NCBI GenBank assembly: GCA_023379805.1
Contig: JAMCPI010000002.1
Span: 62,001 to 126,000 of the forward strand
Direction of reading: 5' to 3'
Length of the DNA stretch: 64,000 nucleotides
Origin: Nitrososphaerota archaeon
GTDB lineage: Archaea > Thermoproteota > Nitrososphaeria > Nitrososphaerales > JACPRH01
A model generated the notes under the pieces. The model was not told the origin of the DNA. It saw only the letters and a program-made list of their open reading frames with translations, and did not search any database. Numbering within the stretch: position 1 is the first letter of the stretch; each line of letters begins with the position of its first letter. Positions 16,605 to 38,248 of this stretch are shown piece after piece. The position numbers were made by a program, and so were the translations under genes.

Positions 16605-17416
16605 CGAGCAGTAAGATTGAAGATGTTTTCCAAGAGCTGAAGAAAAGGCGTGAAGCCGCCTTAATCGGCTACTTGACCGCGGGACTCCCATCTCCAGAGC
16701 AGGCTCCAGCGGCTGCTGAAGCTCTCATCCGTGGAGGAGTAGATATTCTTGAGCTAGGCGTCCCCTTCTCAGACCCTATCGCGGACGGCCCCACAATTCA
16801 AGCCTCGTCTAACAGAGCGCTCAGCCTAGGCGTAACCCCTGAAACAGTCTTCAACACTGTGAAGAAAATCAGGTCGAAGCACCAACAGATCCCGATAGTA
16901 TTGCTCACCTACTATAACCCGATCTACAAGATGGGTGTAAACCGCTTCATGGAGACCTGCAGAAGCAGCGGCGTCAACGGCCTAGTCGTACCCGATCTAC
17001 CGATTGAAGAAGCTGATGACTACCGCAGCTCAGCCGAGAAGCACGGCGTAGACACAATATTCTTAGCTTCACCAGCAACCTCTGTTGAAAGGCTCCGCAA
17101 AATTGTCGACGCAACCTCAGGCTTCCTATACCTAGTATCACTCTACGGTGTAACAGGAGCCAGATCCCAGATGAACGTTAGCTCCTTGGATCTGGTGAAA
17201 CGGTTCAAACCCTACACTAAAGGAAAAGTGAACTTGGCGGTCGGCTTCGGAATCTCCAAACCGGAGCATGTGAAGAGCGTTATCGCGGCCGGAGCTGACG
17301 GAGCGATAGTGGGCAGCGCCTTCGTAAAATTGCTCAATGAAGACATTCCGGTAAAGCGGATGTTGAAGCAGCTCCAAGATTTGGCGGCATCCCTGAAAGC
17401 GGCAACCAAACCTTAG
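16601..17416 (+). CDS. trpA: tryptophan synthase alpha chain
   Basis: Cleaves indole-3-glycerol phosphate to indole for TrpB. 271-residue TIM barrel with [35 protein letters not shown] (catalytic Glu and Asp), [30 protein letters not shown] and [11 protein letters not shown]. Its ATG overlaps the trpB stop (ATGA), the usual coupling of alpha and beta. Last gene of the operon; it converges with the response regulator 14 bases on. Confidence 0.97.
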
Positions 17417-32933: not shown

Positions 32934-32948
32934 TTCGGATATTCCGAA
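32934..32948. promoter_or_regulatory. operator TTCGGA-N3-TCCGAA (site 1), regulator gene
   Basis: A perfect 6-bp inverted repeat, TTCGGA-TAT-TCCGAA, lies ten bases upstream of a TATA-like TTTAATAC (32958-32965) that serves the membrane wHTH gene at 33005. The same palindrome occurs at 33878, 33912, 37830 and 37863 in front of two other genes. Autoregulation by the wHTH protein is inferred. The remainder of 32630-33004 shows no other feature. Confidence 0.7.
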
Positions 32949-33004
32949 CAAAATGCGTTTAATACTATTCCAGATACGGAGCATGAGGATAGAGGTGACC
33001 TAGC

Positions 33005-33832
33005 TTGGAGGATGAGGTTTCACACTTCTTTACCATGATAGGTCATCCTTTGAGACGAAAGATCATAAAGTATCTTGGAGAAAACGGGCAAGGCGGCTTT
33101 ACAGACCTAAAAGCATACCTGGATGTGAGCACAGGCACACTGTATTACCAAATAGATTTTTTGGCAGAGCTCATTGAGCAGGATGCTACTAAGAAGTACC
33201 GGTTGAACGAGAAAGGCAAATTCGCGTATCGGCTTCTGTCTGAAAGCTACGAGAAGCTAACATCAAGCCGCTTCGTCAAACAAGATCGGACAGTAGCCGG
33301 CTACATCACCCTCTGGCTGATCGGATGGCGGTTCATCTCTAACCTGTATGCGAGACCAAGACTTGCCTCACTCTTCGCTGTGATGGTGCTCCTCTACGGC
33401 ACCCTAGTGGCATACCTGTCGGGATTGTACCCGTTAATCTTCATCTATGTGAACCGGCTGCCTCTCCCGACGCTCTACATACCTTTACTCTTCATAGTAG
33501 GCTACCTGCTGATTAATGCCCTCGCAAACATTCTGTCCTATGTAGCTTACAGAACACAGGGTGGCGCAAAACCTCTTCTGCTAGGATCAGCCTTCGCACT
33601 TGCACCCAGCCTGATCGCACCAACTGTATATGTTATCGCTGAAGGTTTTCAGACTCATTTGACAAGTCTTCAGATACAGATACTCATGCTTATCGGAGTA
33701 GGCTACTCTCTCGGTTTCCTCACCTCAGCAATATCTCTCTCTAAGGGATTAGCTACCGAGAAGGCTGCTCTACTAGCCTCGATCACACTCTACGTATCCT
33801 TAGGATTAGCCTTCTACTTTACAACACTTTGA
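33005..33832 (+). CDS. membrane-embedded winged-helix regulator
   Basis: 275 residues. Residues about 5-80 form an ArsR-like winged helix: FFTMIGHPLRRKIIKYLGENGQGGFTDLKAYLDVSTGTLYYQIDFL and wing TKKYRLNEKGKFAYRLL. A linker (SRFVKQDRTVAGYITLW) leads to five or six membrane helices (LASLFAVMVLLYGTLVAYLSGLY, LYIPLLFIVGYLLINALANIL, LLLGSAFALAPSLIAPTVYVIA, QILMLIGVGYSLGFLTSAISL, KAALLASITLYVSLGLAFYF) with a Yip1-like look. It could read a membrane signal and control genes carrying TTCGGA-N3-TCCGAA. Start TTG 33005. It is followed by the PepSY-like operon. Confidence 0.85.
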   Translation: MEDEVSHFFTMIGHPLRRKIIKYLGENGQGGFTDLKAYLDVSTGTLYYQIDFLAELIEQDATKKYRLNEKGKFAYRLLSESYEKLTSSRFVKQDRTVAGYITLWLIGWRFISNLYARPRLASLFAVMVLLYGTLVAYLSGLYPLIFIYVNRLPLPTLYIPLLFIVGYLLINALANILSYVAYRTQGGAKPLLLGSAFALAPSLIAPTVYVIAEGFQTHLTSLQIQILMLIGVGYSLGFLTSAISLSKGLATEKAALLASITLYVSLGLAFYFTTL

Positions 33833-33877
33833 AGACCTCAATAAACCCTATCACGATGTATGAACCATATTTTTTGA

Positions 33878-33926
33878 TTCGGAAATTCCGAATATACCTT
33901 ACTTTTAGGAGTTCGGAAAAACCGAA
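33878..33926. promoter_or_regulatory. paired operators (sites 2 and 3) flanking TATA of PepSY-like operon
   Basis: Site 2, TTCGGA-AAT-TCCGAA (33878-33892), and site 3, TTCGGA-AAA-ACCGAA (33912-33926), are 34 bp apart centre to centre, about three helical turns on one DNA face. The AT-rich CTTACTTTTAGG between them is the probable TATA region. The stretch from 33909 to 33944 is 35/36 identical to the htrA promoter on the other strand. Confidence 0.75.
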
Positions 33927-33972
33927 AGACAAACCTCAAAAATCGCTTTTTTCTTGCTAAACTCTGGGAAAG

Positions 33973-34989
33973 ATGGGCATGCACCGCAAAATCCTACTTC
34001 TTTCGGTGGCCATCGCAGTAATAGCAGGTTCAATCCTAGCAGCTAACATCACATTCACAGCGGCCGCAGCAACAACAGCAGCAGCTACAAGCAGAAGCGC
34101 AGGCTCACCCTACATGTATAGCCAATCAAGGGAGAGATACAGTTTCAACAACAACCCATCTGGGCAGGCTACAACGTCCCTGACGAACGGTTGGAACCAA
34201 ATGTTAACATTCGGCAGAAACCTCTTCACACATGGAAACTACAGGTTTTCACAATGGGGACAAGGAATGTCTGGAAACGTAACTATCACATCAGTACAAG
34301 CAAAGTCAACAGTTGAAGCGGATATCCCTAACCTGAAGGTAGGTACACCAACCTCCTTCCGGCTAAGCTGGATCGTCCCAATCGAGGATGGAAAAGGCAT
34401 AGTGACAATGATACGTGTAAGCCACGTAACCGCAAATACAACAGAACAAGCCGCGACGGTTGTATCCAATTCACTGGCGAAAGGCTGGACAGCCGGAACG
34501 CCGAAGCTGGTAAGAACACTATACTATGTTCCACTAATCGACTCAAGCAATAAGACAATAAGCTACGTGCGTGTAGACGGCAGGAGTGGAAGCATTGTTA
34601 TGCTGACATCATCATCACCCACTCTCACCGTAACTAGCGCACAGGCCAAGACAATAGTAAGCAACGCTATCAAGAACTTCACGGTGGGCGATGTTAAGGA
34701 AAGAGTCGGCTCCTGGATCGTGAGCATTAAAGACGGAGACAAGACTGTTATGACAGTAATTCTAGGAAAGATCAACACCCCCAAGTCTGAAGACGCTGTC
34801 AACGCTGTGAAAAACTCTCTAGAGAAGGGTTGGACAGCAGGAGAGCCGAAGCAACACAGGTCAGTCTATAACGTACCAATCATCGATTCAAACGGCGACA
34901 CCATCAGCATCATCAGAGTGAACGGCAGAACCGGCGACATACTCGGATTTCCATCGATGTATAGGGTAGGTGTAACAAGAAGTGTTTAG
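33973..34989 (+). CDS. exported protein with two PepSY-like repeats
   Basis: 338 residues: signal helix (about 5-30, ILLLSVAIAVIAGSILAANI), a polar Ser/Asn/Gln-rich region, then two related repeats of about 110 residues. Each has SAQAKTIVSNAIKNF- or VQAKSTVEADIPNL-like helix, a strand set (SWIVSIKDGDKTVMTV), a helix (SLEKGWTAG) and the ending YNVPIIDSNGDTISIIRVNGRTGDILG, which is the hallmark of PepSY domains. PepSY domains often inhibit or guide proteases outside the cell, which fits the shared control with htrA. Ends eight bases inside the next gene. Confidence 0.8.
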   Translation: MGMHRKILLLSVAIAVIAGSILAANITFTAAAATTAAATSRSAGSPYMYSQSRERYSFNNNPSGQATTSLTNGWNQMLTFGRNLFTHGNYRFSQWGQGMSGNVTITSVQAKSTVEADIPNLKVGTPTSFRLSWIVPIEDGKGIVTMIRVSHVTANTTEQAATVVSNSLAKGWTAGTPKLVRTLYYVPLIDSSNKTISYVRVDGRSGSIVMLTSSSPTLTVTSAQAKTIVSNAIKNFTVGDVKERVGSWIVSIKDGDKTVMTVILGKINTPKSEDAVNAVKNSLEKGWTAGEPKQHRSVYNVPIIDSNGDTISIIRVNGRTGDILGFPSMYRVGVTRSV

Positions 34990-36385
34990 GAGAGCGCTAC
35001 TAACCCTGATGCTTGCGGTAGTACTCTCCGATCCTCTTTTTTTGACTCAGGTTTACGCTGAGGAGGGTCCTTCAGTATCTTACGCTAACGCAGGCTACGA
35101 CAGCTCTCTACACACAGGCTTCAACGTCACCACCCCTACTGAAGACGGCGGCAACGTCCAAGTCATCTTCGCATGGCAGATAGCAGCCCCAACGAGGGGG
35201 TGGAGAGACAGCAGCTTCCTAAGAGTCTACGATACCTACCCAACTCTTCAAATGTTGAAAAACACAAAAGACGGAACACTCAACTACTCGGTAACCTACA
35301 TTCCGCTCTACCTAATACAGTACGAGGACGCAAACGGCAACGGCATCTTCGATGTGCAAACAAGGAAAAGCTCGATGAACGAATTCTCCGATCAAAACGT
35401 GAACTGGAACTCGAGCGACGAAATCGTAAGAATCTACTCCTTAGCACCAATGTACACCTACTTCCAGCAAAAAGAACCATCAGGAAGTTGGTCTTGGGAT
35501 GTCAGCAACCTCACCAAAGTTAACAAAGGGGATGCACCTGAATACGATTGGAATCTATCAGCGTCGGTGAAGAGCTACGACTGGCAACTTATGGATGAAC
35601 GATACAGAATCGAACAGAACAACGTTAGCGTACACTTCAGTTACAAGTTGACCATCAAACATGAGGGGCCTACGATTAAGCTTGGATACGGTATTAACGG
35701 TGTAACGTGGGCTCAAGGTCAAGACGTCAAGCTAGCGGTAATCTCAGCTGTGATATACCAAGGCAAAGATGAGGTTGTGGTCAAGACGGAGGGTCAATAC
35801 GAGGGTCTTCCTGGAGCATCCTTCATAGATCAAAGCATCGCGCTTGTGGAGAACGCAACCAAATCCACGAGATCCATGATAACGTACAGCCCAATCGCGG
35901 TCGTAGACGGGGTTACCCGAACTGATGCTGTGAAATCTGCGCTGCAACCAGTATTCGTAGTATCAACACCCGTTGCGGTACCTCAGGGCGTCAATGTCCA
36001 AGGCCTGAACCCGGGCTTCGGTGACCAGATATCTTGGCGATACTCTGTAGCATTCGCAAACCAACTCTCCTTCTCTCGCTTCAACAACAGCGTCTACCAA
36101 GACCCAGAGATCTCCTTAGCAGCACCGCTTCTCCTAACCCTACCTGTTACCTTGGTCAACCCACAATGGTTCATCGTGATCGCTGTAACAATCTTCATCG
36201 CATACGCCGTGGTCAGAGTAGCGCTTCGCAGATGGATACGTGAACCCTTCACAACTGGCAACAATTCGACAGCCGGTAAACTCGCGCAGATTAAGGCTCA
36301 GGTGGCGAGGACAGTGAAGCGTAACACGCTTACTGCTATCTACAAAGCGGCTTCGGAGAAAGTCAGAATCGGATTAGCGGATTAA
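34982..36385 (+). CDS. exported protein with C-terminal membrane anchor, PepSY-gene partner
   Basis: 467 residues from GTG 34982, overlapping the PepSY-like gene by eight bases. A signal peptide (RALLTLMLAVVLSDPLFLTQVYA) is followed by a large beta-rich outside domain, with a calcium-loop-like DANGNGIFDVQT near residue 117, then a membrane helix (about 395-420, WFIVIAVTIFIAYAVVRVAL) and a basic cytosolic tail. I do not recognise the domain. Overlap and shared promoter say it works with the PepSY-like protein. Confidence 0.8.
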   Translation: MFRRALLTLMLAVVLSDPLFLTQVYAEEGPSVSYANAGYDSSLHTGFNVTTPTEDGGNVQVIFAWQIAAPTRGWRDSSFLRVYDTYPTLQMLKNTKDGTLNYSVTYIPLYLIQYEDANGNGIFDVQTRKSSMNEFSDQNVNWNSSDEIVRIYSLAPMYTYFQQKEPSGSWSWDVSNLTKVNKGDAPEYDWNLSASVKSYDWQLMDERYRIEQNNVSVHFSYKLTIKHEGPTIKLGYGINGVTWAQGQDVKLAVISAVIYQGKDEVVVKTEGQYEGLPGASFIDQSIALVENATKSTRSMITYSPIAVVDGVTRTDAVKSALQPVFVVSTPVAVPQGVNVQGLNPGFGDQISWRYSVAFANQLSFSRFNNSVYQDPEISLAAPLLLTLPVTLVNPQWFIVIAVTIFIAYAVVRVALRRWIREPFTTGNNSTAGKLAQIKAQVARTVKRNTLTAIYKAASEKVRIGLAD

Positions 36386-36426
36386 CGATGCCTATCGCTC
36401 AACAAGAACAAAATATTATCGTTCCG

Positions 36427-36443
36427 TTATCATTCGATGATAA
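36427..36443. terminator. palindrome between convergent genes
   Basis: TTATCAT-TCG-ATGATAA is a perfect 7-bp inverted repeat midway between the converging surface-protein gene (ends 36385) and htrA (ends 36534). A shared transcription end or stability hairpin is the likely role. Confidence 0.4.
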
Positions 36444-36533
36444 TTAACACCTTAACCCATCCGACTTCGAGTTAATAGAATCCAGCGATCATAGCGAAAG
36501 AAAAAAGAGGAGTTCAAAAAAATGATGGATCGG

Positions 36534-37778
36534 TTATCCTGTGGGCTGAGGTCTTTCGCCTAGCACTAGGTTAACCGACATTTCTTTGCCGTCGCGGATA
36601 ATTTTCAAGACTACTGTGTCGCCGGGGCTCTTGTTACGTTCAACGTATAGTGAGAGGTCGGAGAGTTTTCTGACGTTTGTGTTGTCTACGCCTATGATTA
36701 CGTCTCCTCCTAGTACAGCGGTTTGTCCAGCTATGGTTGTCTGTGATGTTCCACCTTTTAGACCGGCTTTGTCAGCTGGTCCTCCCTGTAGTACCTGCAT
36801 CAATAGGAAGCCTTTGGTTTGACTTAGCTTCATTGCGGATGCTATCTGCGGTGTTACATCGGTGCCTTGTACTCCAAGGTAGGGGTGTTTGTATTGGCCT
36901 GTAGCTATTAGTGAGGCGGCTACTCGTTTCACGGTGTAGGATGGAATTGATAGGCCGACTCCTTCGAAGCCTCCTGACTGAGACAAAATCATCGTGTTGA
37001 CTCCGACCACTTCGCCCCTCATGTTCAGGAGAGGTCCACCTGAGTTCCCGGGGTCAACTACTGCATCTATCTGAATTAGGTTAATCAGCATGTATCCACC
37101 TGTTCCCTGAGTCTCTCTGCCAAGCTGGCTTACTATTCCCTCCGACATGCTGCCGCTGAGACCGAATGGGTTTCCTATCGCCAGGATCTGGTCACCCACC
37201 TGCAGCTTATCGCTGTCACCTAGAGGTACAGGCGTCAACTTTCTAGAGCTTGTGTCGACCTGTACCACCGCCAAGTCAGCATAAGCGTCTCTGCCGACTA
37301 GCTTCGCCGTAACCGTATCTCCGTTCAAGAAGGTTACATCTATCGATGTAGCTCCTTCAACTACATGGTTGTTGGTTACGATGTCACCTTTGTTGTCGAA
37401 CACGAAGCCGGATCCCTGTGCACCTCCGCTCGGCAACGTTACAGATATCGATACAACCGAGCCTTCGACGTTCTTAAAGATCTGAGGAGGTGTAAGATCT
37501 CCTAAGCTGCCCTGCGCAGTAGCTGTTGTTGTGGTTGAAAGCGTGGTTGAAGAAACCGAGGATGATGAAGAGGAGGATGTTGTTGTAGTTGTGGTGCTGC
37601 TACTAGCGATTTCTGTTGCTGGCGTTGTTGATGAGGCTGTTACGATCACAGTTGGCGATTCTCCTGCGGGTATCAATCCGAGGTTTAACGCCTGTCCTGC
37701 GAGAAGTCCTACTGAGAATATTGCGGCTAATGCGACGACTATAATGACCTTGCTTACAGCCATATTTCGTAGAATCAT
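36534..37778 (-). CDS. htrA: HtrA/DegP-like surface serine protease with PDZ domain
   Basis: 414 residues from ATG 37778: anchor helix (7-32), long Ser/Thr-rich stalk (about 43-88), trypsin-like domain with the triad His138 (IVTNNHVVEG), Asp168 (DAYADLAVVQVD) and Ser246 (VDPGNSGGPLL), and one PDZ domain (about 300-405, HPYLGVQGTDVTPQIASAM ... KAGLKGG ... GVDNTNVRKLSDL). It degrades or refolds damaged proteins outside the membrane. A longer frame to 37859 exists, but it would place the operator and TATA region inside the gene; AAAAGGGA before ATG 37778 supports the shorter start. Confidence 0.93.
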   Translation of the reverse strand: MILRNMAVSKVIIVVALAAIFSVGLLAGQALNLGLIPAGESPTVIVTASSTTPATEIASSSTTTTTTSSSSSSSVSSTTLSTTTTATAQGSLGDLTPPQIFKNVEGSVVSISVTLPSGGAQGSGFVFDNKGDIVTNNHVVEGATSIDVTFLNGDTVTAKLVGRDAYADLAVVQVDTSSRKLTPVPLGDSDKLQVGDQILAIGNPFGLSGSMSEGIVSQLGRETQGTGGYMLINLIQIDAVVDPGNSGGPLLNMRGEVVGVNTMILSQSGGFEGVGLSIPSYTVKRVAASLIATGQYKHPYLGVQGTDVTPQIASAMKLSQTKGFLLMQVLQGGPADKAGLKGGTSQTTIAGQTAVLGGDVIIGVDNTNVRKLSDLSLYVERNKSPGDTVVLKIIRDGKEMSVNLVLGERPQPTG

Positions 37779-37829
37779 TCCCTTTTCCACTGTCCTAAAC
37801 GAGGAAAAGGGGATTTTTGAGGTTTGTCT

Positions 37830-37877
37830 TTCGGTTTTCCCGAACTCTATAAAAGACATACATTCGAAAATACCGAG
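37830..37877. promoter_or_regulatory. paired operators flanking TATA of htrA
   Basis: Read on the minus strand, the near site (37830-37844) is TTCGGG-AAA-ACCGAA and the far site (37863-37877) is CTCGGT-ATT-TTCGAA, a weaker copy; centres are 33 bp apart. A TATA element TTTTATAG (37847-37854) lies between them. The layout copies that before the PepSY-like operon. Confidence 0.7.
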
Positions 37878-38002
37878 TCTGCATCAGTGCAAGCAAACTG
37901 AGACAAATTTCTAGTTCAGATGCAGGTGATTGCCGATTTGACTTTCTTACTTTGGCTCCTTTGCCAAAGGTTAATTATAGTATGCAATCAGGCGAAAGAG
38001 AC

Positions 38003-38248
38003 ATGAGCCTAGACGGGATGAGAGGTAAAGAAGTATCTAAGACCTCGGCAGTATCTGTTCCGGAAACCCTTCTTGCGAGAGCAGAGCCGCTAGTTAAGGA
38101 GAAAGGCTTCGACTCCATTTCTGAATATGTGCTCTCCCTCCTACGCGAAGATATCTCCAGATATGACGCGGATCAGATAACCGAGTATCTTAAACCAGTT
38201 GAGATGGAGCGTATTAAACAGCGGCTCAGGAGTTTAGGTTATCTCTAG
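38003..38248 (+). CDS. ribbon-helix-helix-like small protein upstream of sat
   Basis: An 81-residue protein from ATG 38003; the TATA-like TTAATTATA at 37971-37979 puts the transcript start at about 38001, so this ATG is favoured over longer starts at 37952 or 37982. It has VSKTSAVSVPETLLARAEPLVKEKGFDSISEYVLSLLREDI, a beta strand followed by two helices as in CopG/RHH DNA-binding proteins, then a helical tail (YLKPVEMERIKQRLRSLGYL). It sits six bases before sat and may regulate it or bind its product. Confidence 0.65.
   Translation: MSLDGMRGKEVSKTSAVSVPETLLARAEPLVKEKGFDSISEYVLSLLREDISRYDADQITEYLKPVEMERIKQRLRSLGYL

Follow-up and report, generated by a model that had tools for sequence, protein, structure and literature searches.

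Do the copies of the palindrome TTCGGA-N3-TCCGAA that stand before a gene for a membrane-embedded winged helix-turn-helix (wHTH) protein, a PepSY operon and an htrA gene mark out a regulon, and if so, which protein acts through them, in which direction and to what end? The locus lies in a window of 64 kb, the whole stretch of DNA analysed here, on contig C2 of the 2.34-Mb genome (95% complete) of a groundwater archaeon of the class Nitrososphaeria (G000). A first-pass annotation had listed five palindromes before these three units. All five were found where it had placed them, the htrA copies in degenerate form.

Palindromes and promoter architecture

The 2.34-Mb genome contains just two exact copies of the palindrome, one ahead of the membrane wHTH gene and one ahead of the PepSY operon, and an exact search of the genome with the reversed control pattern gave no match. 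The wHTH gene has a single copy, TTCGGATATTCCGAA (32934..32948, + strand, no mismatch), followed after exactly 9 nt by the TATA-like octamer TTTAATAC (32958..32965, +). Both are conserved in the sister species G001, where they form an island in an otherwise diverged intergenic region. The PepSY operon has two copies 34 bp apart. The distal one (33878..33892, +) is exact, keeps its position in G001 and G009 and is half conserved in G023 and G015; the proximal one (33912..33926, +) has one mismatch and is kept in five genomes, with the TCAAAAA-type octamer TCAAAAAT (33936..33943, +) 9 nt beyond it. On the opposite strand, htrA has a distal copy with three mismatches (37863..37877, −), a proximal copy TTCGGGAAAACCGAA with two (37830..37844, −) that is identical in G001, and 9 nt further on the octamer TCAAAAAT (37813..37820, −). 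Both htrA sites lie upstream of the gene because its start was moved to the ATG at 37778 (MILRNMAVSK) from the longest-ORF start at 37859.

Four sites with at most one mismatch were present in the window against a mean of 0.2 per dinucleotide shuffle (the fourth, at 17246, falls within trpA), and two pairs spaced by 33-34 bp against one pair across 60 dinucleotide shuffles. Matches with three mismatches numbered 25 in the window against a chance expectation of 27. The htrA copies are degenerate and the three-mismatch copy would carry no weight alone, so the reality of the htrA sites rests on conservation and on profile searches. A genome scan for single sites with one mismatch was noisy, reversed control patterns scoring equally often, and a paired profile was therefore adopted. 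One such profile, R2, was trained on PepSY/surface-operon promoters alone, from five genomes. A fuller one, R1, was trained on promoters of G000 and G001, which belong to one genus, and of G009, G023 and G015, which lie outside it; the five represent three families in total.

Searching the whole of G000 with R2 returned its own promoter, the htrA promoter (E = 2.1e-12, a match that contains the distal copy) and the promoter of an unannotated RNA candidate on contig C7 (2.8e-11), and the next match (0.013) was inside a gene. The same three promoters were returned from G001, the ortholog of the C7 promoter, on contig C11, being weaker (7.5e-7). A sample of 400 genomes of the order served for the wider searches for wHTH protein, motif and RNA. 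Among these, R1 gave E ≤ 1e-13 in the five genomes named above only, the next match being at 4e-4 in G063. Since R1 was trained on promoters of those five, its independent information is limited to the absence of the motif elsewhere; this absence and the R2 test are the only results independent of R1 training. Two weak profile matches, G000:C5:4051 and G029:C21:9321, were both within genes and were taken as noise. In another genome, G030, at least eight occurrences of a near-identical word, read as TTCGGGAGATCCGAA or in reverse complement as TTCGGATCTCCCGAA, are scattered over contigs C5, C9, C11, C15, C17 and C18; the word may be recognised by an unrelated regulator or may belong to a repeat element.

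Alignment of the paired promoters gave a single arrangement: two palindromes separated by an unconserved 19-bp spacer, then 9 nt resembling AGACAA or AGAAAA, and an octamer of the TCAAAAA type, the last at constant distance in 9/9 paired promoters. The spacer varies in sequence between different genes but is constant in length, and the palindrome-9 nt-octamer spacing is identical at the wHTH, PepSY, htrA and RNA promoters. The 9 nt between the proximal palindrome and the octamer are room for a BRE, and the octamer would serve as the TATA box. Weak TATA-like strings (AATATA- or TTTATA-like) are also found between the paired sites of the PepSY and htrA promoters.

Extent and content of the predicted regulon

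The five R1-positive genomes are exactly those of the 400 searched that encode a wHTH ortholog of at least 58% identity, and in each of them the wHTH gene adjoins the motif. This co-occurrence supports the first-pass annotation in its choice of the wHTH protein as the controlling protein. Its expectation that the motif would be conserved in relatives held for the PepSY/surface operon, before which the paired sites are kept in five genomes of three families, but not so widely for the wHTH self-control site and the htrA sites, which, like the C7 RNA unit, are seen in the genus only. Its regulon of wHTH gene, PepSY operon and htrA was supported in all three members yet incomplete, a candidate non-coding RNA being a fourth target; four units were thus found in the 2.3-Mb genome. 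Because the three genomes outside the genus carry the motif before the PepSY/surface operon alone, the predicted ancestral circuit is control by the wHTH protein of the neighbouring operon for a PepSY protein, a surface protein and an ABC exporter. No palindrome with two or fewer mismatches was found near the starts of an htrA paralog in G000 (60%, C2:27910) or at the HtrA loci of G009, G023 and G015.

The first gene of the operon (33973..34989, +) encodes a secreted protein of 338 aa with two PepSY-like repeats. Its PepSY score (PF03413) of 17.7 bits is under the 24-bit cut-off, and 4/4 orthologs match the family, the best at 1.4e-12. The overlapping second gene (34982..36385, +) encodes a surface protein of 467 aa of no known family, with orthologs in 5/5 genomes. 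Hydropathy gives it a signal peptide and a C-terminal membrane helix (397-415), and the AF2 model, which says no more than all-beta at pLDDT 55, makes the extracellular part all-beta; no Pfam match and no significant Foldseek match were obtained. The order in relatives, with some rearrangement, is wHTH, PepSY protein, beta-rich surface protein, small membrane protein or domain, ABC ATPase, large surface protein (927-1370 aa, with CARDB/NPCBM-type repeats) and FtsX/MacB permease. The operon of G015 is without PepSY and retains the sites. The exporter of G009 is of the MacB/FtsX type (ABC_tran 1.6e-35, FtsX 1.2e-20, MacB_PCD 7.9e-20), and that of G001 exceeds the cut-offs for ABC_tran and FtsX with no match to MacB_PCD. 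In G001 the exporter and a surface protein of 1110 aa lie between the surface-protein gene and htrA (L032:4685-10920). In G000 the exporter is missing, a gap of 148 bp (36386-36533) separating the end of the surface-protein gene from that of htrA, and elsewhere in the genome only a 32% paralog was found. This absence is a recent loss at the locus.

The htrA gene (36534..37778, −) encodes an HtrA/DegP-type protease with an N-terminal membrane anchor, judged by hydropathy, a trypsin domain (Trypsin_2, 119 bits) and a PDZ domain (PDZ_2, 48 bits), both past cut-off. The match to TIGR02037, 302 bits, is under its cut-off of 416. The catalytic His, Asp and Ser are found in the translation in NNHVVEG, DAYADLAV and GNSGGP. 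There are no stress markers in the regulon besides htrA.

The RNA candidate (L103:2935-3085, − strand of C7) has a promoter with two palindromes 34 bp apart and the octamer, and its ortholog in G001 (L105:3308-3462, +) has the same promoter architecture. About 110-150 nt are highly conserved between the two species, with a length change of 1 nt and no apparent reading frame, and the 3' end is a hairpin followed by T-rich sequence. The 3' half has a second copy in G000, G001 and G003 and a single copy in G002 and G004, and the eight copies in total show compensatory changes at four base pairs. No Rfam match was obtained at the gathering threshold or at E ≤ 5. Because the single-sequence folding energy is unexceptional (z of −0.1 and −1.5), it is conservation and covariation that justify calling the RNA structured. 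A gene for a small secreted protein begins about 250-300 nt downstream, which makes a long leader an alternative to an RNA gene. Any function of the RNA in the regulon is speculative. The second 3'-half copy in G000 (C2:31176-31247; L153:1501-1572) has no palindromes and lies downstream of a cluster with the second htrA (60% identical), a gene for a soluble wHTH protein and an hsp20 gene. Genes for secreted PQQ-type beta-propeller proteins of about 720-735 aa (L103:3226-5397, L154:776-1921, L165:12255-14459) adjoin RNA copies on G000 C7 and G001 C16 and are near an ABC/surface-protein cluster on G000 C12.

The operon content and the exporter of relatives support a function in surface maintenance or export, and we infer such a function for the regulon. 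The operon content also weakens the idea of PepSY as an HtrA inhibitor, and an interaction of PepSY with HtrA is speculative. That the input is membrane or surface stress is an evenly balanced proposition. The sites may instead be real but not serve stress, the regulator controlling assembly or turnover of a surface structure or an export system with HtrA as a maturation protease. This is a respectable though minority possibility: the core conserved target is a secreted/surface-protein operon with an ABC exporter, and ArnR, the nearest analogue among studied systems, regulates surface structures when cells starve (PMC6396743). Both HtrA and PepSY are modules typical of quality control, which speaks for stress, but their presence fits either reading.

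The wHTH protein and the probable direction of control

The wHTH gene (33005..33832, +) has a TTG start and encodes a protein of 275 aa. The start and the recognition helix are conserved in the five orthologs, the recognition helix GTLYYQ being invariant in 5/5. An N-terminal ArsR/DUF7347-like winged helix (about residues 1-75) is followed by linker helices and five membrane helices predicted from hydropathy (about 120-138, 159-177, 193-211, 222-244 and 254-272). With a wHTH domain and five hydrophobic helices in one chain the protein can be classed as a transmembrane transcription regulator (TTR). Its Pfam wHTH matches are weak, just under cut-offs, and a distant homolog exceeds the DUF7347 cut-off. 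A Yip1-like membrane domain, suspected from the sequence, received no Pfam support. The AF2 model consists of helices at low confidence (pLDDT 44) and is too poor for use, and sequence searches of the PDB with three family profiles gave no convincing match. The closest named relative of the gene (93%) comes from JACPRH01, a groundwater MAG labelled 'Thaumarchaeota archaeon', and two others come from 'Nitrososphaeria archaeon' MAGs; no relative was found in the plasmid collection. More distant homologs (about 25-31%) have no other regulon genes and no paired motif alongside, and in these motif-less proteins H replaces Q in the recognition helix.

We consider it highly probable that the wHTH protein binds and controls these promoters, direct control by it being the economical reading. 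As a one-component transmembrane transcription regulator it would bind TTCGGA-N3-TCCGAA through its cytoplasmic winged helix, as a dimer. The proximal dimer would sit 9 nt upstream of the TATA-like octamer, beside the BRE, and at paired-site targets a second dimer would sit 33-34 bp, or about three helical turns, further upstream. Most likely the bound regulator recruits TBP/TFB to a weak promoter and so activates transcription. The likely input would be an alteration of the membrane or surface layer, detected via the membrane helices, and the output the regulator itself, the secreted PepSY protein, the beta-rich surface protein, the HtrA protease and the candidate non-coding RNA, joined in relatives by the MacB/FtsX ABC exporter with its large surface subunit. 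Taken as a whole, a one-component membrane regulator activating a surface regulon is the best explanation and a fairly probable one. The computations establish the motif, its geometry, its conservation and its exclusive co-occurrence with this wHTH protein, and binding, activation, the signal and the role in surface maintenance are inferences.

Among archaeal activators, Ptr2, Ss-LrpB and LysM occupy positions immediately upstream of the BRE and have additional sites at a distance of two or three turns (PMC2995911), the palindrome bound by TFB-RF1 keeps a conserved spacing to the weak BRE that follows it (PMC5937170), and ArnR acts through a pair of 15-bp inverted repeats in the region from −84 to −43 (PMC6396743). 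Because the sites here likewise stand just upstream of the BRE/TATA, activation by the predicted regulator is favoured over repression and is judged likely. Many ArsR-like wHTH proteins, for their part, are repressors. The wHTH protein could also repress the surface operon, htrA and itself until released by a membrane signal, and the AATATA- or TTTATA-like strings between the PepSY and htrA sites would set the proximal site over the start. However, such inter-site strings are unconserved across the nine paired promoters whereas the octamer 9 nt downstream is conserved, the conserved RNA sequence starts roughly where an octamer-set transcription start would fall, and the best TATA-like box of the wHTH promoter is downstream of its palindrome. 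Repression is an unlikely, though not negligible, alternative.

That some other DNA-binding protein reads the palindrome is very improbable. The obvious candidate is the ribbon-helix-helix (RHH) protein orf98, divergent from htrA (37952-38248), which adjoins the htrA sites, is kept in G001 and has weak similarity to NikR-type RHH proteins. It has no homolog in G009, G023 and G015, all of which bear the motif, while homologs are found in motif-less genomes, and this phyletic pattern argues strongly against it as the regulator. Its homologs are scattered across other families of the order. Finally, the htrA proximal site lies in a block of about 35 bp that is nearly identical in the htrA and PepSY promoters, but a recent duplication of no regulatory meaning is scarcely credible when the operon promoter is kept across families despite diverged flanks and the same architecture stands before the RNA on another contig in two species.

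Relation to known systems and significance

Membrane-bound transcription regulators are widely known, and those of the ToxR/CadC class of TTRs likewise combine a DNA-binding domain and a membrane region in one protein (PMC10269533). TTRs are mostly single-pass whereas the regulator here is polytopic, and no description of this archaeal subfamily or of its regulon was found. ArnR and ArnR1 of Sulfolobus acidocaldarius are membrane-bound wHTH activators (PMC6396743). The present protein resembles ArnR as a membrane-bound HTH one-component regulator, surface structures being what ArnR controls (PMC6396743), and its paired inverted repeats upstream of the BRE/TATA resemble those of ArnR (TCGAC-N5-GTCGA, −43 to −84) as a functional analogy only. 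In ArnR, HAMP and sensor domains are combined with two membrane helices at the C-terminus; here there are five predicted helices, no separate sensor domain was seen and the Pfam search gave no HAMP match, which places the protein outside the ArnR family by domain content. The targets, half-site and spacing of ArnR are also unlike those here. TFB-RF1 (PF1088) of Pyrococcus furiosus, with ArnR the closest system in logic, is similar in three respects: a palindrome stands a short, fixed number of base pairs before a weak BRE/TATA, the regulator controls its own gene, and it activates an operon for an ABC exporter (PMC5937170). That exporter is of the ABC2 type, and the one in the relatives here of the MacB/FtsX type. 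The part of the account of its regulon that was consulted mentions neither sites paired at 34 bp nor HtrA or PepSY. The Lrp-type activators Ptr2 and Ss-LrpB share a dimer site a few bp upstream of the BRE with a further site two to three turns up (PMC2995911). They belong to a different family, with RAM domains, and have no membrane part.

The bacterial sigma-E and CpxR circuits join an HtrA/DegP-type protease to other envelope factors, with autoregulation and in some cases small RNAs. The predicted circuit would be similar in all of these respects, but is built of unrelated parts, with no sigma factor, anti-sigma factor or two-component pair. In the open literature, with subscription journals mostly outside the search, no report was found of a polytopic wHTH protein with control over HtrA, an RNA and a PepSY/surface/export operon. 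We raise, tentatively, the possibility of an archaeal envelope-stress regulon with a polytopic wHTH activator, an independent invention of sigma-E logic including its small-RNA arm.

As far as comparison of genomes can tell, one conserved signature very probably allows the wHTH protein to turn on four units: the gene that encodes it, the surface operon, htrA and the candidate small RNA. The DNA signature is precise enough for direct testing, and the proposed circuit would provide a worked case of membrane-bound transcription activation at an archaeal promoter. Little is understood of the ways in which archaea sense damage to the surface layer and the single membrane that enclose them, and repair it. 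The regulon proposed here, small and sharply defined, would connect a regulator embedded in the membrane with a protease, a candidate RNA and a module for surface proteins and export. If this is true, archaea would have a compact counterpart, not described before, of the bacterial envelope-stress circuits.
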